This document shows positions 52,055-64,000 of a DNA stretch of 64,000 bases, piece after piece. How positions within the stretch are numbered: position 1 is the first letter of the stretch; each line of letters starts with the position of its first letter. The translations under genes and the position numbers were made by a program. Under the pieces are notes generated by a model. It saw nothing but the letters and a program-made list of their open reading frames with translations, was not told the DNA's origin and made no database searches. The DNA lies in contig OY727094.1 of assembly GCA_963402885.1 (NCBI GenBank), positions 26,476,501-26,540,500 of the forward strand. Reading direction: 5' to 3'. The DNA is from Antedon bifida (Eukaryota; Echinodermata; Crinoidea; Comatulida; Antedonidae).

Positions 52055-53232
52055 ACGCACTTAACACAAGTAAATGGTGTCCGATCAGATAAATGCTATA
52101 GTAATTGTGGAATCCCCCAAGGATCAATTTTGGGACCACTCTTATTTATACTTTATGTAAATGATCTACCAAAGCATGTAAATAGTGTACAGATTAGTAT
52201 GTATGCAGATGATACAGCTCTTTACTTTGCATCTTCTGATATAAATGAAGTACTTGCAAAAATTAATGAAGATTTAAAAAAAATCAAATCATGGCTAGCA
52301 AGTAACAAGCTTAGTCTAAATGTAAATAAAACTCAGTGTATGTTTATAGGAACACAACAAAGGCTTGCAAAATTAGCAAACATTGATCTAAATTTAAACA
52401 TAGACAATGTTCGGCTACAAAGAGTAAAAAGCTGTAAACATCTAGGTGTTGTTATTGATGAATATTTACTGTGGGATAAACAAATAGATAATGTTAAAAG
52501 TAAAGTATTGCCAGGCTTGTACTACTTAAAAAAATCTTCAAATCTCGTCCCAAAACATGTATCTTGCTTAATGTATAATAGTATTATCTCTCCACAGTTT
52601 AACTAATTGTAATATTGTGTGGGGCAGATCAAATAAAAAAAAATACTAATAAACTACAAATGCTACAAAACAGAGCAGCCAAAATTATTACAAAAACAAG
52701 GAAATACGACTCAAGTACACAAGCCCTGCAAAACTTAAACTGGATAAATCTTAATACTCAACTACATAATAATGAAGCCAAAATGTTATATAAAATATTC
52801 CATAATCAAGCACCACCATATCTAAACGAACTATTTACACCCAAACTAGACACATACAATACAAGATCAAAGGATGTATTAAAATTGAATAAACCCAAAA
52901 CAGAATATAAACAAAAAAGTTTTTCATATCATGGTGCTAGTTTATGGAATACTTTAAAAAAACCAATGCAAAATGCCACAAATTTAAATACTTTCAAAAA
53001 ATTATTGGTGTGATTTATTATTTATTTCGTACTCTTATCACAAATGTAATTAAGGTTTCTGTTCATATATTTTTGTTCTCTAATTTGTTATTTTTAAAAT
53101 TTGTTATTTTTAAAATTTGTTATTTTTAAATGTGTAATGTACTACTGTTAGTTGATCACGGCCTTGTAGAAGAACACCTTTATGGTGACACAAGCTTTTT
53201 CGTGTTAAAATAAAGTATTTATTATTATTATT
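52055..53232 (+). pseudogene. Plus-strand LINE, 3' part: RT palm, thumb and tail
   Basis: Continues the RT from 49621: GIPQGSILGPLLFILYVNDL, the catalytic MYADDTALYF, the thumb (KSCKHLGVVIDEYLLWDKQI) to 52606, and after a frameshift the C-terminal region 52615-53013 (LQMLQNRAAKIITKTRKYDS, SFSYHGASLWNTLKKPMQ). The 3' UTR ends with an ATT trinucleotide tail (about 53208-53232) abutting the second copy of the target duplication ATTGTAT at 53233-53239. The copy is relatively young: long frames survive and the tail is intact. Confidence 0.85.
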
Positions 53233-55440
53233 ATTGTATAGCATTTTGTAAAGACATCTGCCATTTTTTAGACCATTGGACTACTTGATCACGGTCATGT
53301 TGTAGTTGTTCTTGGTCTGCTTTTTTATTTACAGGTCGAAAGAGTAAACAGTCATCAGCAAATAATGTTATGGTTGTACCGGTGCTAATATCTTCTCCGA
53401 TGTCATTGATGTATAATAGAAACATTAACGGACCAAGTACCGTGCCTTGAGGCACTCCTGATGTTACCTTTGCTGTTTTTGATATCTTCCCATCAACTAT
53501 GACACATTGGTTTCTATTTGTAAGCCAATACTGGATCCAGTTTAGAGTTTGTCCTGATATTCCATATTTGCTGAGTTTGTGGAGTAGTCTCTGATGCACA
53601 ACCGTGTCAAACGCTTTACTGAAGTCAAGTATTTGTACATCAATTTGGCGTTTACTTCCTTGGTCAAGATGGCGGCTGATTTCTTCAATTGTGTTTAAGA
53701 GTTGAGTTTCACATGAATGTTTCTTCAGAAAGCCATGCTGGTATGGCTTGATGATGTTGTACTTTTCAATATGAGCCATGATGTTGTGAAATAGGATATG
53801 TTCCAGTAGCTTACAGCATACCGATGTTAATGAAACGGGTCTATAGTTTGCTGGTGATGATTTATCTCCCTTCTTATAAATAGGACAGACATTAGCTGAT
53901 ATCCAGTCATCTGGAAGACTTCCTGTTTGTAGTGATTGACTAAAAATATTTGTTAGTATTGGGGCGATTTCATTTGAACATTCTTTCATAATACGTATCG
54001 GAATTTGATCGGGTCCAGGCGCTTTATGGGTTTAAGGTTTTCTAAGAGTTTTGATACACCTGCAATGTCTATTTCAAAGTCCTCCATTTCAGGAAATTGA
54101 CTGCTTATCGAAGGTATTGATGTGGTATCTTCTTTGGTGAAGACGCTGGTATATTGTGAGTTAAAAACTTCAGCTTTTTCAGTACTTGTATATTACAAGT
54201 CCAGATTGGGATGATAATGGTGGTAATCCAGTACGATCTTTCTTCTTGTGTGCAATAAATGACCAAAATTTCTTTGGGGCAGTATGGAGGTTTTCTATAT
54301 TTAGAATTCCTTTAATGTAGTTAAGTTGTGCTTTATCCAGTTTTCTTCTAATGGAGTTCCTTAGAGTACGAAATTGCATCCAGTCATCATCCTTTCCAGA
54401 TCTCTTTGCTTTTCTATAGACTCTTTTAAATCGTTTTATCATTTTTCTTATTTCATCATTCATCCATGGAATGCCTCTTCCGTTCTTTATGGTTTTCCGA
54501 GGTATATGGCAGTTGATAATGTTTATGATACTTTCCCGTAATGTGATCCAATTTTCATTTACAGACTTTTCTTCAGTATTAATATTAATGTGTTTTAGGT
54601 TGGTTTTTACTGTGTCCATATTTCCCTTTTTGAACATGTAGATTTGCCTTGATTTTTTCTTGTTTGTCTTTACTGAGGTGTTTATTTCTGCAACTACTGC
54701 GTGATGGTCACTAATCCCTGGTATTACTCTTACATTTTCCACGCAAGAGGGATATGTAGTTAGCAAAATATCAAGTATGTTGTTCATTCTTGTAGGTTCT
54801 AGGACATGTTGAGTTAAAGAAAAATTGTTTATTAGGTCAAGGAATTTCTGGTTGATGGACATACTGTACCATATTGAGGATTTGGTTGAACTGAGATAGT
54901 TTCCCAGTCTATACTTGGCAGATTAATGTCGCTTCCTAATATAATGAGTGGTAAAGAGTTGCCAGTGGTGGTGGTACCCCTGTTTGCACTGGATATGTCT
55001 CATCAAGGTGGGTTTCAGTGCACAATACTATGTCAGGATTTTCTGTTTCAATAAGTGATTGGAGTTCAGCTTGCTTAGATATACTCCGTATACTGCAGCA
55101 GTTCGCGATAAGTATTTTTAATGTAGTCTTCTTTTTTGCTTTATGACGAGAATTATTATCGTTATCCGCAGTTATGGGGTCATGCATTACATCATCATCA
55201 TCACCACTCTCATCGCTTAAGGCTGAGAAAGAGTTTGTACATACGGGAGATTCTTCGTTATTGAAGAAAAAGGAATCAGAGAAGTTTGGTAGCTCACATG
55301 ACAGGCAAAACCAAACAACATTTGCGTCTGATTTCTGTAGCTTACGGTACTGTTGTCTTTTAAGGAGAGTGAGTGTGATCACACTCCTAACAAACTGCCC
55401 TTGAGGAGAGCGATTTACAACACGCCTAAATTTGGTAAAT
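53233..55440 (-). pseudogene. Minus-strand LINE, 5' half: zinc-finger region, endonuclease, RT
   Basis: Reading leftward: 54936-55382 carries a PHD-like zinc-finger end (VVWFCLSCE) and the EN start (LKILIANCCSIRSISKQAEL, IVLCTETHLDETY). 54179-54862 carries the EN end (PGISDHHAVVAEI) and linker. 53231-53989 carries RT motifs (NYRPVSLTSVCCKLLEHILF, ILDFSKAFDTVVH, SGVPQGTVLGPLMFLLYIND, FADDCLLF). Frameshifts separate the three blocks, and a small deletion removes residues just after KKWQMSLQ. It continues at 47882 after the inserted plus-strand LINE. The 5' boundary is approximate. Its presence of N-terminal zinc finger plus EN plus RT fits CR1/Jockey-like elements. Confidence 0.8.
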
Positions 55441-56353
55441 TTCTACACACCAAAGTACAAACAGCACACCTACAACACCCCTAAATGTAGGCCTATTGAG
55501 GAGTGCAATTTGTAGCACACCTACAATTTTAAAAAGACAAGGCCTGCTAGGCTATAGGTAGGCCTAGTCTAGTTAGGCTAGGCCTAGCCTATTATTATTA
55601 TAGCCTACTAGCTAGGCATATCTCTAAAATAATTACATAAAATCACGTTTTTTAGTAAAATATTTTTTTATTAACATTGTAAAATTCAATAAAATATGAT
55701 ATTAATTAATTATTAGTAAATTAAAAATAATATTTAATCAACCTTATTCAAAGAATGTCAATACTTTTATTTAGACCATGATGAACTTATGTACTGCATA
55801 CACGTAGTACTTACTGTAATCACTAGACTACGCAAAATGGCGTAAAAGACTCACTGAGAGTTACATAGAAATCACTGCCGGCTCAATTTGTCGGCGGCCC
55901 AACAGGTCATATGCCGTGTACTACAGTATCTAGGCAGTAGTTTAAAAAAACTAAAAGCAGTGCTCCATCCAAGGTTGATTTTATTGTGACTGATTTGAAA
56001 TGCAATCAATCGATTTCATTGTCACCATACAGGCTCGGACAACATGGTCAGCACTACAGTTTGACTAATTATTAATGAAATGCATTATATAGATGTTAGG
56101 TACTGTACTGTATACTGACTGAATAGTTACTGATCAATGCATACGGTAACTGTAGAAACCAAAGTTTAAATCTTTTTGTATTCCTTTAATTTAAATGGTC
56201 AATTTATGATCATTATACTATATTGTTACTATGGTTATTATTATGTTTGGTAATATTTGATTGAATAAGGTTCCCAAGAAGTTATTTTATTATAAACTTG
56301 TTAAGATATTCAGTGAATTAATAATAATTAGAATTAAATTATTTATTCAACAG
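55441..56353. other. Upstream region of the CARD-OB gene
   Basis: Candidate promoter and 5' UTR region for the plus-strand gene starting at 56367. It has a cluster of TAGGCCTAGTC-type motifs at 55540-55620 and several TACTGTA motifs, but no clear core promoter. The acceptor TTTATTCAACAG just before 56354 implies that an upstream non-coding exon exists, which I could not place. Confidence 0.4.
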
Positions 56354-56495
56354 ATTTTACTGAATCATGGAAGCTGCACACAAGAAGATTCTTCAAAAGA
56401 ATCGTATAATATTAGTTAGCGATATGCCCATTGAAGTCTTGACTGAATTAGTGGCGAGACAAATTTTTAGTCCAGATGATGATGAAAAATACCGG
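56354..56495 (+). CDS. CARD-OB gene, exon with start codon: first half of CARD
   Basis: An acceptor (ATTCAACAG) at 56345-56353 precedes 13 bases of 5' UTR and ATG at 56367. The exon encodes 43 residues, MEAAHKKILQKNRIILVSDM to FSPDDDEKYR, and ends at a GTTTGTAG donor (phase 0). The sequence follows the first three helices of a caspase recruitment domain. KKILQKNRIILV resembles the helix 1 region of caspase-2 and RAIDD CARDs, followed by LTELVARQIFSPDD, like the LLEHLLEKDIIT segment of caspase-2. CARDs polymerise through like-like contacts in apoptotic and inflammatory complexes. The read-through frame beyond the donor (VCRVVITQYSN) is not CARD-like, which supports splicing here, although GTTTGT is a weak donor. 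Confidence 0.75.
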
Positions 56496-56863
56496 GTTTG
56501 TAGGGTTGTCATAACACAATACAGTAATAGAAAAAGATACAGGCTCTTATAATATTAGAAATTAAACTAAACATACAGTGAGTACTGTACTACAAGATTA
56601 TAAATTAATTTAGGAAATTACCACCTTTTTGACTTTGGTACATTCTTTTAAAAATAAAAATTGATTAATATAAAAACAATTTATACCAACATATAAATCT
56701 TGATACTAGGCATAGCATATATATTATGTTTTTATAATAATTAGGTTTAATTAAATGTAAAATTAAATATATAATTTAATAAAAAAACAACAATAGAAAT
56801 AAATCATCTTGTGCACAGTGCATTTCCAAAGTCCAATTTTAATATTTTTCTCTTTTTTTATAG

Positions 56864-57134
56864 CGTATGGTAACAACTGAGCGAAATACTAAAATCTTAA
56901 TTGATATTACTCGTAAAGGACCAAAGGCATTCTGTGCACTAGCTGAGTCCTTATTTGCTGCAGAAGCGTACCATCTAGCTACACTTTTAATACCAGACCT
57001 TACTGAAAAGAAATTACACGATTTAGGGTTTTATAATTTTAATAATGAAAACCAGCCACCTGTGCTAGAGCAAAGAGCTGGAAACATGCAAGGTAATGCA
57101 GAAGGGGGTAAAAAAAAAAGAAAAAGAAAAAAAG
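56864..57134 (+). CDS. CARD-OB gene, exon 2: second half of CARD and basic linker
   Basis: Acceptor TTTTTATAG at 56855-56863. Phase 0 start restores DEKYRRMVTTERNTKILIDI, then TRKGPKAFCALAESLFAAEA and YHLATLLIPD. The RKGPKAF segment is the hallmark of the CARD helix 4-5 region (RAIDD has SRGPKAFDAF, caspase-2 KRGPQAFDAF). CARD therefore spans residues about 1-88. A linker of 45 residues follows and ends GGKKKRKRKK, a strong candidate nuclear localisation or nucleic-acid contact patch. Two GGTAATG donors occur, after 57092 and after 57134, both phase 1. Choice of the first would drop 14 residues including the basic patch. The stop-bounded frame runs on to 57202 with a hydrophobic end, which would be an intron-retained form. 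Confidence 0.8.
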
Positions 57135-57961
57135 GTAATGTATATATCATAGTAGCTCTGTTTTTAATTATTATTATTTGTAAAGATTGTTGTTCCTGTT
57201 GAATCTGTTGACTAAACCATACTATAATATGAAGAATAATTTTGAAGTTGGCAAACTAAAAACTGGCATCTTAATACTGGTTGTGGTACTATCCAGTGTA
57301 TTCTAAAAATACAATTCTGTACTGCAGTACAGTACTATATATATGTTCACCATCAGTCAGTCAGTGGTTCATCACAATTTTTGCCTAAAAAAAATCTTAC
57401 TTTAACCAATTTGCTTCATTAATAAGTTGGTTCACTAGTATAGCTGGTTGGCCAGGCTGCGGCTTGGTTGTTGTATGCTGCAAAATAAGTTCAGAAGAAT
57501 AAGCAATCCACATTTTGTTTTTCTAATATTGTCTTTGCCAGTACAGTACTATAACTTCAGTAATACAAAGCATGTGTTCTCCATATTATAAATCTAAATG
57601 GTGTGGTGAACTGACAAAATACAAAAGGCATACTGTACAAAACATCATTTTTTGGTAAAAAATGATTGCTAAAAAAATGTTTTTCCTAAAAAATGAGTAG
57701 TTAACAGTAGAAATTTAATATTTTTTTTAGTGGGTCAGTGAGTCGTATACTACATTATTCAATCACTTTTATGTTGGTTCGGTGGGGTTTGCTATGTTTT
57801 TATTTGAGGTTTGCGAGGTTTAGCAATACCCTACTGTACTTTTTATCGTTTAGCCATACATATTTTCCAAATTTTCACCACTCATATCATTGTTTTAATA
57901 ATGTTTCTATTTTTTATTGCATTTTTTTACTTGACTTTTTCTTTTATCTTTGTTTCTTCAG

Positions 57962-57990
57962 ACACTGCAGAAAATATTCCCCAAGACACA
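57962..57990 (+). CDS. CARD-OB gene, microexon 3
   Basis: A 29-base exon between TTTGTTTCTTCAG and GTAAGT, completing the phase 1 codon from exon 2 and leaving phase 0. It adds DTAENIPQDT. Both splice sites are strong and the phases fit its neighbours, but so short an exon could be skipped or be spurious. Skipping would break frame, since exon 2 ends in phase 1 and exon 4 starts in phase 0, which argues that something of this phase must lie between. Confidence 0.5.
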
Positions 57991-58128
57991 GTAAGTAAAG
58001 ACAAAAAATTGTCTCTTTAGTACTAGTGGCTTTTCTAGAAAATAGGCATATTGCTTTTGAAAAAAATGTACCCCTTTGAATAATTCTCTTGATTAAATGC
58101 CCAAATGGAATATCATTAGGAATGAACT

Positions 58129-58142
58129 CCCCCCCCCCCCCC
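58129..58142. repeat. Poly-C run of 14
   Basis: Mononucleotide run in intron 3, striking in an AT-rich region. Its exact length may be uncertain for sequencing reasons. Confidence 0.85.
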
Positions 58143-58184
58143 TCAATTAAATGCTCTGAGGCTTTTATTTTTTCTTCAAAGCAG

Positions 58185-58695
58185 TGTTACGACCCCTTTT
58201 TGCCTAGGCCGAAATACTTAACTAATTACATCGAGGTTTGGAACAAACAATAGCCAACACTCAAAGTTCTATGCAAGAAGCACGAGCTCCATTTAATTTG
58301 CTTGCACAGTTCATTACATAACAACAAAAACTATAATACAAATGATACCGAGTGGTTGGTTTGCCTAGGCATCCGTACATTCAATCACAACTTTCCCATT
58401 CTTATTGTCCTTGTGTCCTGCCTCGCTACCAGTCTCGAACACAGTTCACTGCAAGTCTTTATTCCATTATTACACAGTCGGCAGTCTCATATCCACTGTC
58501 TTATCTCTTATCCAGAAAGCCTACCATCTCCAACTTGTACCGTCTCGTGAGTGAGTCAGTCTTTTCCTTGTCTCACACACCCAACACAGCTTTCCAAAAT
58601 ACCGCACATCACAACACTACATTCTGATTCGTCCACTTGACCACCGGTGACTTGATTCATTTGCATGCGACACCTGATTATCATCACACGTAACA
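58185..58695. mobile_element. Solo LTR of a retrotransposon (fossil)
   Basis: A 511-bp sequence beginning TGTTACGACCCC and ending CACACGTAACA, that is TG...CA ends with a 7-bp terminal inversion (TGTTACG / CGTAACA). It is flanked by a 4-bp direct repeat GCAG at 58181-58184 and 58696-58699. No internal coding region lies next to it, so it is a solo LTR left after recombination between two LTRs. Ends and target length fit a Gypsy-like element, but family assignment is tentative. It sits in intron 3 of the CARD-OB gene, and the overlapping open frames are incidental. Confidence 0.75.
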
Positions 58696-58699
58696 GCAG

Positions 58700-59361
58700 T
58701 ATTCAAATACATGACACACACACAATACTGTATTATAGCATTTCTATCTTTCATGAGCTACAATTTAAAAAGACATTTTTACTGTATTTATCAAGTTATC
58801 ACATCAATGGTGAGATTATGTTATACATTTTAAATTTCATCTGGATTCCAACACTAAGGGCCTTTTCAGAACTACCTTTCATAACGTACCTCTGAACCAG
58901 GAAAAGATTTTTTCTTTTCTCTTACGACACTGATCTTTCATTTGTTATAACATCTCAAGGTAGAAGATTAGTGACCGACGCTGAATGATACGAAAGTCAT
59001 GCATCAACAATTTTGACCTCAACCAATCAAATTTTCTCTTGCATACCAGACGTTCACCTACAGTAAATCGGGCCTACCCTAACAGAATGTTTGTAACTCA
59101 GCTTATTATAATATACAGATGGAATAATATCCTGAAGAGCCTGTCATATTGTACAGTCATTCTACTTTTTTTAAATATGTAACTGTAACATGTAGCACTG
59201 TGACTGATCAAATGAATTAACTTAAATTAAAAATTAAAAATTAAAAAATGTTCCTACACACCACACACAGGTAATGTACAACATGATATTATTATTATTT
59301 GATCACTAAATATATATACATATAAAAAACTATATTAATAACAATTGATTCTTTCTTTTAG
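58700..59361. other. Remainder of intron 3
   Basis: No exon recognised. AT-rich with a short AAATT repeat near 59225-59247. Frames here are short and unlike coding sequence. Confidence 0.5.
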
Positions 59362-59592
59362 TATATAAAAATGATATCCATATATGTTTTGACGTCACCT
59401 GCTAACCATGGAAAGTACTGGGAATTTCATGCCTTTAATGACAAGTTAGAATATTTACGAGGAAAAATAAAAGCGGAAAATGTTTCTATTGTTGAGAAGA
59501 TTAAAGAAGGTTCCTTTAGAAAAATAGCAAAGGCAAAACTAAGTTTCAATGAAAACATATGGGAATTGGAAATTAGTGACAACACAGCCTTC
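59362..59592 (+). CDS. CARD-OB gene, exon 4: first OB-like region
   Basis: A 231-base exon between CTTTCTTTTAG and GTAAGT, phase 0 at both sides, 77 codons without stop. It reads YIKMISIYVLTSPANHGKYW, then EFHAFNDKLEYLRGKIKAEN, a helix-like VSIVEKIKEGSFRKIAKAKL and SFNENIWELEISDNTAF. The alternation of short beta-like strands and one helix, ending in a strand of the WELEISDNTAF type, suits a diverged OB fold equivalent to the first DNA-binding OB of RPA70-like proteins. I judge this by pattern only, and conservation here is weaker than in exon 6. No metal-binding cysteines are present. Confidence 0.7.
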
Positions 59593-59819
59593 GTAAGTAA
59601 GAAATTATCATTTTGATTATTGATTCCTTTTAAATACTCTGGCAGTCAAACTCTACATTCACATACTGTACAGTTGAACTTCACTCCAAAGCTGATGCCT
59701 CTCTTAAGTGGTAGACATCTAATCAAATTTACCTCTGGTATTTAGACACCCACAATTACTGAACCAATTTGTATTAAAATCATTACTACTTTTCATGTTA
59801 TAACCATTATACTTTACAG

Positions 59820-59960
59820 GTGTTTCAAGGGGGAAACAATGATTTTGAAATCCCACGAGAAAAATTGAAAAATTTTTTTACGCCAGATGAGGTGAGCATT
59901 GAGGAGGCAATGGGAAGCCCCAAAAGAAGGCGAGTCACTATCCAAGGAGAAGTTACACTG
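59820..59960 (+). CDS. CARD-OB gene, exon 5: linker between OB regions
   Basis: A 141-base exon (acceptor ACTTTACAG, donor GTAAGT, phase 0 at both sides). It encodes VFQGGNNDFEIPREKLKNFF, then TPDEVSIEEAMGSPKRRRVT and IQGEVTL. The first residues finish the OB region of exon 4 and the middle is a charged linker with SPKRRR. The end, VTIQGEVTL, is the first beta strand of the next OB fold, as in RPA70 (typically a VxVxGxV strand). Stop codons appear shortly after the donor if unspliced, consistent with splicing to exon 6. Confidence 0.75.
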
Positions 59961-60143
59961 GTAAGTAACAAACTTAATTCTCCACAATCTTTTAACAAAC
60001 TATTTCATACCAATAAAATCACAATCATACATTAATACCAGCAAACATTAGCTAAATGCTTAACTTGTTACTGTAGGTTAGATTTTGAACCCGGACTGTC
60101 ATAAAAATGTATTTCCTGTTGGTCCAGATACTGCACACTGACT

Positions 60144-60737
60144 TTAAAGTCCCCTTCCCTACGTTTTTTAGATCTAATTTGAGATCACAAACTATATTTA
60201 ATGTAAAAATAATACTTTATGGTCCTACTGCGATAACTTTTTTCGTCTTTAAACGGTTAAAAATGTGAAAAATAAGTCGATTCTAAGATTATAACGGCCG
60301 CTATAAATCCCAAAATGCATTGCGCGCAGATCTTCTATAATTCACCCACTTTTCGATCGATCGTGAGGCCAAAACAAATGGAAGACTCCTAACTTTTCAG
60401 CAAAAATACCGGGTTTTCCCCAATTTGTATCAATGGAGTCTGGCAAAAATAGAAAGACAATTAATGCAGCAACTATACAACGTCAGGCTAGGTATATAGC
60501 TAGCGTACGATGTTCGTACGTTACCGTTGTTTACCATCTAGGCCTACAAAACAAAGCCAAGCAAGGCTAGGCCTAAAGACCGTCCATGAGAGGTCATTCA
60601 CCGCGAGCTACTTAGGTAGTGAATTGTTTACCATAAAATGTACATTTAAGACAAGGAATGACCTGGTTTAATGTTTTTAAAGTAATATATGTATTATTTT
60701 TACAAAACGTCACAAATTGTAGGGAAGGGGTCTTTAA
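60144..60737. mobile_element. MITE-like DNA transposon with TTAAAG ends in intron 5
   Basis: Left end TTAAAGTCCCCTTCCCTACG and right end, read inverted, TTAAAGACCCCTTCCCTACA. Internal similarity of the arms (GTAAAAATAATAC) extends about 90 bp with gaps. TTAA lies at both ends, compatible with TTAA target duplication. The middle is comparatively GC-rich with TAGGCCTA motifs and holds no open frame. The ends resemble those of the TTAAAGATGTATTG family only in the first six bases. Confidence 0.65.
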
Positions 60738-61449
60738 CTATAGGTGTTACAAAATCCTAAAATTTAGCCTAAAATAAATAGTTAATTACATATATACATT
60801 GTATTTATTTATACATATATGCAATAAATATTTGTAAATCATCACATATGATTCTACACATTATATATATAATTACTAAGTCTTACCAACTGTAATAATC
60901 TAAAATGTGTATGAATATCTTACACTTACAGTAAAATAGAAATTTCAATATATAAAATATCTTCCAAAATCTGAGTAAAAATCATATAAAAATAATACCA
61001 AAATGATATTTAAAAAAGTTACATAATACTGTAATAGTACTGTACATGTATTACATATGGCCCCCATCCTGTCATGACAAACAATAATCTTAGGTCCAAA
61101 ATATTATTTTCTAATAATTAAGCTAAGTACTTCTCTGCTACGGATGAGTTCTGTTGTGTTCATTTATTTGTTAAAATATTTGTATACAGTAATTTTATAA
61201 GCATCTGCAATTATGTGTTTAACTACTCTGTTGGTTGCGAATACTACGAAGACTTTCACATTCAGCAACATTAACCGAATAAACAATAGTTATTACTGCA
61301 CTCCCTGCTGGCGTACAGTACAATCTTGAGTCTTTGCTAGTCTTACACAGACTGTTAACACAAAACTTGACTTAGTACACTTATACTGTAACCAAGTACA
61401 CCACCATTTCCAAAAGACTAAATATTAACAAACTTTTTTTTTAATACAG
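60738..61449. other. Remainder of intron 5
   Basis: AT-rich with no exon recognised, ending in a T-rich tract and the acceptor AATACAG of exon 6. Confidence 0.55.
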
Positions 61450-61662
61450 ATCGAAAAAAAAGTTGTTGCGAAAACTTGGCAACGTCGTGATATTCATATA
61501 AAAAACACAAACTTCAAAATAATTAAATTAAAACTCTGGTGTGAAAAGGCTGATGAAGTTACAGAAGAGCATGATGGTGCAACATTCTGCTTCACTAATG
61601 TTGAAGTGGATATTTTTAACAAAAAAGCAGAACTGAAATCATTGAAATTAACACGCATAGAG
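61450..61662 (+). CDS. CARD-OB gene, exon 6: RPA70-like OB fold
   Basis: A 213-base exon (acceptor TTTTTTAATACAG, donor GTATAC, phase 0 at both sides), 71 codons. Joined to exon 5 it reads IQGEVTL-IEKKVVAKTWQRRD, then IHIKNTNFKIIKLKLWCEKA, DEVTEEHDGATFCFTNVEVD and IFNKKAELKSLKLTRIE. This follows the RPA70 DNA-binding OB order: a basic strand (RPA70 has REVAKRNIYLMD), a strand ending LxLW then an acidic CEKADE (RPA70 TATLWGEDADKF), a hydrophobic strand before a VEVDIFN turn (RPA70 KGARVSDFGG), and a final strand. RPA-type OB folds bind single-stranded nucleic acid in a groove lined by aromatic residues. The aromatic Trp and Phe positions are kept here. This is the best supported domain after the CARD. 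Confidence 0.8.
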
Positions 61663-61696
61663 GTATACCTTTCTCAAATTATAATTAGAGCAAAAT

Positions 61697-61830
61697 GTTC
61701 CGAGTTTGAATCTTAGTTGAGGCTGCTTTTTCTCGTTCTCACAGATTTTCTCATCTTTATTGTATCAAATTAATTATTTGATATTCAGGATATCACCCGA
61801 TGCTTCAAAATTTGTTCTGTGCCTGTTAAT
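61697..61830 (+). repeat. tRNA-like repeat remnant in intron 6
   Basis: Right half of the family seen at 18.9-20.2 kb: GTTCCGAGTTTGAATCTTAG (B box region), TTCTCACAGATTTTCTCATC, ATATCACCCGATGCTTCAAA, TTTGTTCTGTGCCTG. It begins 34 bases after the exon 6 donor. Confidence 0.65.
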
Positions 61831-61849
61831 CTATATAATATATTATTAG

Positions 61850-63115
61850 ATTATTATAATTAAATCCTAGGTTATATTATAATTACATCCTAGGACATGT
61901 TAAAATTACATCATTTGCGACATTATAATTGTAACCTAGACTAACATAATATAATATATATGTAATTAAGTCCTAGACTACCTACATTATAATTACATCC
62001 TAGACTACCTACATTGTAATTACAACCTAGACTAACATTATAATTACATCCTAGACTACCTACCTTATAATTACATCCTAGACTAACATAATTACGTCCT
62101 AGACTACCTACATTATAATTACATCCTAGACTACCTACATTGTAATTACAACCTAGACTAACATTATAATTACATCCTAGACTAACATAAATACATCCTA
62201 GACTACTTACCTTATAATTACAACCTAGACTAACATAATTACGTCCTAGACTACCTACATTGTAATTACAACCTAGACTAACATTATAATTACAACCTAG
62301 ACTAACATAATTACATCCTAGTCTACCTACATTGTAATTACAACCTAGACTAACATTATAATTACATCCTAGACTAACATAATTACATCCTAGTCTACCT
62401 ACATTGTAATTACAACCTAGACTAACATTATAATTACATCCTAGACTAACATAAATACATCCTAGACTACTTACCTTATAATTACAACCTAGACTAACAT
62501 AATTACGTCCTAGACTACCTACATTATAATTACAACCTAGACTAACATAATTACATCCTAGTCTACCTACATTGTAATTACAACCTAGACTAACATTATA
62601 ATTACATCCTAGACTAACATAATTACATCCTAGACTACTTACCTTATAATTACAACCTAGACTAACATAATTACGTCCTAGACTACCTACATTATAATTA
62701 CAACCTAGACTAACATAATTACGTCCTAGACTACCTACATTGTAATTACAACCTAGACTAACATAATTACATCCTAGTCTACCTACATTGTAATTACAAC
62801 CTATACGAACATAATAATTACATCCTAGACTAACATAAATACATCCTAGACTACCTACCTTATAATTACAACCTAGACTAACATAAATACATCCTAGACT
62901 ACCTACATTGTAATTACAACCTAGACTAACATTATAATTACAACCTAGACCAACATTATATTTATATCCTAGACTTATATATTATAATTACATTCTAAAC
63001 TAACTTTATAATTACATCTTAGATAACATTATAATTACATCTTAGACTAACATTTTAATTACATGTTAGACTAAAATTATAATTACATCCTAGTATAAAA
63101 TAATTAAAACCTAGG
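61850..63115. repeat. Minisatellite of CCTAGACTA units in intron 6
   Basis: About 1.25 kb of interleaved short units: ATTACATCCTAGACTA, CCTACATTGTAATTACAA, CCTAGACTAACATTATAATT, and versions with ACGTCC. They combine into longer repeats of roughly 70-80 bp that are themselves reiterated, with progressive decay at both ends. It occupies most of intron 6 of the CARD-OB gene. Confidence 0.9.
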
Positions 63116-63231
63116 CTGCATTCTAGTTACTGTACATTCTTGTCTCCTGAAGTAATTACATCCCAGGCTCCCGAAGTACACGTTTCCTTAACATATTGAT
63201 GATAATTTTGTTTTGCTTGCAATTACTACAG

Positions 63232-63296
63232 AACCTGTCTAAACCACCTGACAAAAACATTCAAGTTCAAATCATCAATGGTATTGATCCCACAGT
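63232..63296 (+). CDS. CARD-OB gene, exon 7 (gene continues beyond window)
   Basis: A 65-base exon between TTACTACAG and GTAAGT, starting in phase 0 and ending in phase 2. It adds NLSKPPDKNIQVQIINGIDP and T plus two bases of a Val codon. If unspliced the next codon is TAA, so either splicing continues off the right edge or the protein ends here at about 360 residues. The strong GTAAGT donor favours continuation. The residues resemble the linker after an RPA-like OB fold; no new domain is visible. Confidence 0.6.
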
Positions 63297-63854: not shown

Positions 63855-64000
63855 AAAGATGTATTGTCCCCCTGAAAAATGTTTTTGTTGAATATTTTAT
63901 TTCAATGTCACATAATAGTTATTCACTCCACAAAAAATTGGGTCTGAAAAAAATTTATTTACCTGAGAAAAATGTAATTTAAAGCAAAAAATGGTCAAAT
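63855..64000. repeat. TTAAAG-family MITE, left part, cut by the window end
   Basis: Starts TTTAAAGATGTATTGTCCCC and continues TTTTTGTTGAATATTTTATT, TTTACCTGAGAAAAATGTAA, AAAGCAAAAAATGGTCAAAT, in the same order as the full copy at 14658-14986 read in reverse. It continues past the window. Confidence 0.75.

Follow-up and report, generated by a model that had tools for sequence, protein, structure and literature searches.

A CARD joined to an RPA70-type tandem OB module beside a CARD-caspase gene: a candidate nucleic-acid-binding regulator in the crinoid Antedon bifida

The PYHIN or AIM2-like receptors (AIM2, IFI16, p202, and p204) share a layout in which a death-fold domain is joined to a module of tandem oligonucleotide/oligosaccharide-binding (OB) folds, the former being a pyrin domain and the latter a HIN domain. 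PYHIN genes are reported only in marsupial and placental mammals, and the HIN domain is described as unique to them (PMC3458909). We describe a gene of the crinoid Antedon bifida whose predicted product, here called the CARD-OB protein, combines a caspase recruitment domain (CARD) with OB sequence of the RPA70 (RPA1) type. The gene begins in a 64,000-nucleotide stretch of contig OY727094.1 (the window; C7:26476501–26540500, C7 being our label for the contig) of assembly GCA_963402885.1, which comprises 315.6 Mb in 27 contigs. A COX1 gene on contig C27, translated with the echinoderm mitochondrial code, has Asn (codon AAA) and Ile (codon ATA) at conserved positions, which makes an echinoderm the probable source. 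Our analysis yielded an exon model, its domains, a homology to RPA70, a duplicated segment, and an intact neighboring caspase gene. Judged by its sequence, the CARD-OB protein is not a PYHIN sensor; its layout is analogous to theirs, and on the best reading it would form a bridge from nucleic acid to caspase within one protein.

CARD16, CARD17, and CARD18 likewise carry a CARD close to that of an adjacent caspase gene; they consist of the CARD only, whereas the CARD-OB protein adds a tandem-OB module. Apaf-1 is also a CARD protein, with NB-ARC and WD40 parts and no known OB module. CARD16 is described as a decoy, is 97% identical to the caspase-1 CARD, and is encoded in the same genomic region (PMC3775265), and DNA sensing is reported for Apaf-1-like molecules from lancelet, fly, mouse, and human (PMC11747288). 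With RPA70 the CARD-OB protein shares, by profile, the tandem OB folds and their linker, and it keeps the aromatic residues of DNA-binding domain B (DBD-B); it differs in the loss of the DBD-A aromatics, in the fused CARD, and in having no other RPA70 domain matched by Pfam. The fold of a further protein, Teb1, was matched by both of our OB models. Among the papers listed in our searches of the open-licence PMC literature, none dealt with a CARD-OB or CARD-RPA protein. New combinations of death-fold domains are known from amphioxus and, to a smaller degree, from sea urchin (PMC2575513).

The whole gene is an exon model derived from the genome sequence, in which the joint splicing of the exons in one transcript is modeled. 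Positions are those of the window, and extended coordinates continue this numbering past position 64,000 into the downstream DNA. The features are as follows.

55951..56366, + strand: 5' flank, putative promoter region; its counterpart is the flank of the downstream CARD-caspase gene (360/403 aligned bases identical, Jukes–Cantor distance 0.115)
56367..56495, + strand: exon 1, start codon and N-terminal half of the CARD; donor GTTTGT; 1 of 129 bases different from caspase exon 1, no synonymous changes
56864..57134, + strand: exon 2, second half of the CARD and the KKKRKRKK patch; acceptor TATAG, donor GTAATG; Pfam CARD match of 36.3–38.7 bits
57962..57990, + strand: exon 3, short linker exon of 29 bases, possibly a remnant of caspase exon 3, with the same entry and exit phase
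59362..59592, + strand: exon 4, OB fold 1 (OB1), RPA70 DBD-A-like (AlphaFold2, Foldseek), with an internal ATG where the first coding exon of the paralogues starts
59820..59960, + strand: exon 5, inter-OB linker, conserved among paralogues, and first strand of OB fold 2 (OB2)
61450..61662, + strand: exon 6, remainder of OB2, RPA70 DBD-B-like, with the equivalents of W361 and F386 (AlphaFold2, Foldseek, residue mapping)
63232..63296, + strand: exon 7, beginning of the C-terminal piece, with a donor that joins it to exon 8 (extended 64542–64713)

The seven exons within the window join in frame (entry phases 0, 0, 1, 0, 0, 0, 0) through canonical splice sites, with GT donors and, from exon 2 onward, AG acceptors, in line with the consistent phases noted in an initial annotation made from the sequence alone. 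Exon 7 ends in a donor (CACAGT/GTAAGT), so the model extends beyond 63296 into an exon 8 that lies outside the window, ends in a TAA stop, and completes a protein of 416 residues, the GT/AG rule holding throughout; there is no stop or frameshift within the 416 codons. In each of four paralogues, the C-terminal exon could be aligned with the protein encoded by exon 8, at a score that 0/2000 shuffles reached. From N- to C-terminus, the product comprises the CARD (residues 7–85), the sequence KKKRKRKK (from residue 126), OB1 (from 147), OB2 (from 257), and a short C-terminal piece encoded by exons 7 and 8, which gave no Pfam match in a scan of the OB plus C-terminal part.

The initial annotation had named an N-terminal CARD and a Lys/Arg patch, both of which held up, the CARD (PF00619) scoring 36.3 bits in the 360-residue protein of exons 1–7 and 38.7 bits in the N-terminal 146 residues, above the curated cut-off of 23.9 bits. 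Pfam found no pyrin domain in the CARD-OB protein, its N-terminus scoring as a CARD. A plain RAIDD or caspase-9 CARD was considered and rejected, the PDB matches being weak (RAIDD 0.025, caspase-9 0.057), and the domain was placed in no CARD subclass.

Two OB folds after the CARD, the second of them RPA70-like, had also been proposed, together with a profile search and a structure prediction. The presence of two OB folds was borne out by family, profile, and structure tests, and the likeness to RPA70 stands, whereas its limitation to the second fold does not, as the match covers the tandem DBD-A, linker, and DBD-B. The profile search recovered the CARD as above and fell short for REPA_OB_2, which scored 18.5–18.9 bits on OB2, below the cut-off of 27; this single-protein match is only suggestive. 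A phmmer search of the PDB with the OB region alone gave nothing notable (one match, E 1.7). A profile of six joined OB-family members searched against the PDB with hmmsearch retrieved an RPA70 (4gnx_C, E 4.3e-4) over DBD-A, linker, and DBD-B; human RPA70 as the query retrieves the same entry at E 1.7e-75. We then aligned family profiles with RPA70 using hhalign, with column shuffles (200 per test, two tests) and reversed alignments as controls. A four-member profile scored 38.8 (probability 73, 153 columns; shuffle maximum 22.7, 0/200; reversed 11.7), and a six-member profile scored 43.9 (probability 85, 160 columns; shuffle maximum 22.9, 0/200; reversed 11.6). By these comparisons the homology of OB1, linker, and OB2 to the DBD-A/DBD-B pair of RPA70 is firm, and it is because paralogue profiles were used that the kinship became firm and extended over both OB folds.

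RPA70 binds with four stacking aromatics, F238, F269, W361, and F386. Two of the four are retained in the CARD-OB protein, both in OB2, where a W and an F align with W361 and F386, the DBD-B pair. RPA70 also has an N-terminal DBD-F and a C-terminal DBD-C; their Pfam families gave no match up to E 10 in exons 1–7, and none in the scan of the OB plus C-terminal part.

Structure prediction, carried out exon by exon, modeled the OB folds confidently from exons 4 and 6. AlphaFold2 returned for exon 4 (OB1) a model with a predicted local distance difference test score (pLDDT) of 91.5 and a predicted template modeling score (pTM) of 0.80 from nine rows, with strands and a short helix after the third; exon 6 (OB2 minus its first strand) reached a pLDDT of 89.7 and a pTM of 0.74 from 12 rows. 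In Foldseek, the OB1 model ranked HIN-200 OB folds and Teb1 highest; HIN-200 structures had the lowest E-values (best 1.1e-3) and made up 26 of the 50 rows shown, and the query TM-scores were higher for Teb1 (0.72–0.77) than for the HIN rows shown (0.57–0.70). The top match of the OB2 model was human RPA70 (1jmc), with Teb1 also matched. At or below E 0.001 there were no Foldseek matches (0/796 for OB1 and 0/214 for OB2). Homology to HIN-200, raised by a reading of motifs and by the OB1 fold matches, was rejected at the sequence level, with hhalign scores of 20.8 and 17.0 reached by 2/200 and 14/200 shuffles, and the HIN domain (PF02760) had no match in the OB plus C-terminal protein or in the genome, the control genomes for the genome search likewise giving none. 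By sequence, then, the module is RPA70-type, and OB1 looks HIN-like in its predicted fold with no kinship to HIN implied. Elsewhere in the genome, a far stronger REPA_OB_2 match at C7:3970708 (E 3.2e-28) is presumably RPA1 itself. At four places on three contigs (C8:8205560, C8:15339371, C10:3263934, and C12:7427249), REPA_OB_2 matches below the threshold have one and the same score and could be a mobile element encoding an RPA-like protein.

A CARD-caspase gene starts 11 kb downstream of the start of the CARD-OB gene and 2.7 kb past its stop. This intact gene was assembled from seven exons linked through GT/AG splice sites, followed by a final coding part read from extended 77257, and encodes 453 residues with a Peptidase_C14 domain (E 4.1e-67), a CARD (36.3 bits), and the THG and QACRG motifs. 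The two genes share a repeat: extended 55951–57048 recurs at about 66968–68110 with 79%–80% identity. The 5' flank is 89% identical to the caspase flank at extended 66968–67445, and intron 1 is 85% identical. The CARDs of the two proteins agree at 85 of 103 residues, and exon 1 agrees at 128/129 bases and 42/43 residues, with no changes over 25 synonymous sites. Because exon 1 is more alike than its surroundings, the comparison suggests that gene conversion or strong constraint has shaped it. Around exon 3, blastn matched 57899–58000 to extended 69760–69864 (E 2.4e-6), much of this match being the T-rich intron end. The caspase partner suggested initially has strong circumstantial support from this adjoining CARD-caspase, whose CARD is nearly the same. 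Another CARD-caspase is located near C7:26.13 Mb, and a cluster of eight caspase-domain matches, among 29 matches listed, lies at C10:23.16–23.26 Mb.

The OB part belongs to a dispersed family. Of the 37 genome matches obtained with the OB region at an E-value of 1 or lower, four are the CARD-OB gene itself; a paralogue query gave 60 at E up to 0.01. The tandem-OB genes are partly clustered (C8:10.5 and 18–23.6 Mb, C14:10.52 and 21.67 Mb, C7:23.63 Mb, C10:17 Mb, and C13:5.6–12.5 Mb), and DNA identity between family stretches, introns included, was 72%–98% (13 loci compared). Stops are listed for 34 of the 60 matches, many of which run past exon ends into introns, including two of the query's own source exons. 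All five paralogues inspected have an intron acceptor (CAG) immediately ahead of the site of the OB1-exon start codon, which is ACG in one of them (L064); this arrangement would permit splicing to a coding exon farther upstream. The CARD-OB gene enters exon 4 nine bases upstream of its ATG. A mobile-element origin of the family was considered but not adopted; the copies lie on many contigs, and no search aimed at element ends or Helitron proteins was made. A plant Helitron with an RPA-like gene has been described.

Other fusions were sought in the genome of this one animal. The nearest of 21 CARD-profile places to any of 55 other OB-family places (compiled manually, with overlapping ones omitted) was 428 kb away, in a search that misses CARDs split over two exons, including that of the CARD-OB gene. 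Nine other places found with the gene's own CARD lay no nearer than 428 kb to another OB-family place. Among 150 Death-domain places listed, none was within 400 kb of an OB place by eye; DED and pyrin fusions were not searched. Death-domain matches number at least 150 genome-wide (of 241 candidates, 150 were scored), and many lie in clusters at C7:11–18 Mb and C10:11.7–16.2 Mb.

The simplest history would be that of a young chimeric gene, in which the 5' flank and exons 1–2, possibly also exon 3, of the CARD-caspase were duplicated in front of a tandem-OB gene, and the duplicated CARD exons were spliced onto this member of an expanded, intron-containing family; the duplication probably ran in that direction. 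We read the product as a nucleic-acid-binding CARD protein that controls the neighboring caspase through CARD–CARD contact, probably by clustering on exposed strands, and give this reading a probability of roughly one half. OB2 and the basic patch would bind exposed nucleic acid, probably single strands, and several molecules side by side on one long strand would present their CARDs together. CARDs in general recruit and activate caspases. Because the CARD is nearly that of the neighboring caspase, the clustered CARDs could recruit and activate (or, less likely, titrate) this caspase, and with near-identical CARDs, adjoining genes, and similar 5' flanks, the two proteins would be likely to meet. 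More tentatively, and with the balance somewhat against it, an echinoderm may have independently built a one-step, AIM2-like and PIDDosome-like switch by placing the promoter and CARD of its caspase on a single-strand binder of the RPA70 type, an arrangement in which sensor and effector are co-expressed. If true, the sensor would carry the effector's own polymerizing domain, the PYHIN-like layout would have a second, independent origin whose probable effector can be read from the map, and the locus would offer a clean test both of the birth of a death-fold sensor and of the sufficiency of single-stranded nucleic acid for caspase activation.

Several observations weigh against control of the caspase by nucleic-acid-bound CARDs. 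OB1 has neither DBD-A aromatic (F238 is replaced by I and F269 by L), R382 of RPA70 corresponds to E in OB2, and basic residues barely outnumber acidic ones in the OB region (22 K+R versus 20 D+E over residues 223–340). On their own, the two members of the second OB-family branch compared poorly with RPA70 (hhalign probability 9, 31 columns). Exon 3 alone is only weakly like caspase exon 3 (28/2000 shuffles reached the score), and the CARD part of exon 2 diverges from that of the caspase with a nonsynonymous rate (dN) of 0.19 and a synonymous rate (dS) of 0.23, a ratio of about 0.8 that suggests either weak constraint or diversification. We saw the fusion a single time, in one genome, which is not the same as its being unique. 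Finally, under neutrality a stop-free frame is only moderately unlikely: among 2000 simulated copies, evolving by substitution alone and with the whole gene assumed as old as the CARD duplication, 8%, 2.6%, and 0.75% were stop-free at 0.05, 0.075, and 0.1 substitutions per site.

These last figures bear on whether the locus is a young, non-functional chimera, with neither part under selection and a frame open by chance. The weak constraint on exon 2 is what such a relic would show, and some copies of the OB family look broken, although many of the stops counted above come from intron overrun. Against it stand 416 uninterrupted codons, the simulated rarity of such a frame, and the retained stacking residues of OB2, and we regard a dead gene as very improbable. 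Nearly as doubtful is a division into two transcripts, in which exons 1–2 would yield a CARD-only protein, through read-through or because exon 3 is skipped, and the internal ATG of exon 4 would begin an OB gene of its own. The paralogues do start at the equivalent ATG, just after the acceptor, the reading frame of exon 2 continues through intron 2 until a stop 68 bases on, and, judging by the phases, a transcript lacking the 29-base exon 3 would lose the frame; exon 3, however, has good splice sites, keeps the frame, and shows a modest likeness to its caspase counterpart in position and phase.

The competitor we take most seriously, while still considering it unlikely, is that the CARD-OB protein is a decoy or brake, which would occupy the caspase CARD and restrain the caspase, with the OB part tethering the brake to DNA or letting DNA release it. 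The CARD is a near-copy of that of the adjoining caspase, the same genomic situation as for CARD16; the roughly 270 further residues with two OB folds are unlike CARD16, CARD17, and CARD18, and sequence cannot tell activation from inhibition. The label of adaptor used in the initial annotation is accordingly one of two readings, as a caspase-derived CARD adjoining its caspase also fits a decoy of the CARD16/17/18 kind.

A few features within and around the CARD-OB gene are of separate interest. Just upstream of its flank, frames on the minus strand at 53231–55442 resemble, by eye, a non-LTR reverse transcriptase and its upstream part. Intron 6 is mostly minisatellite (61852–63114), with about 52 copies of a 24-base unit and higher-order periods of 48, 120, and 168, and a minus-strand open frame of 346 residues lies inside it (61941–62981). 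If intron 2 were retained (57135–57202), the CARD frame would continue through a very hydrophobic stretch, VYIIVALFLIIIIC, directly after the Lys/Arg patch; the product could possibly be a tail-anchored CARD isoform, or the stretch may have arisen by chance in AT-rich DNA.

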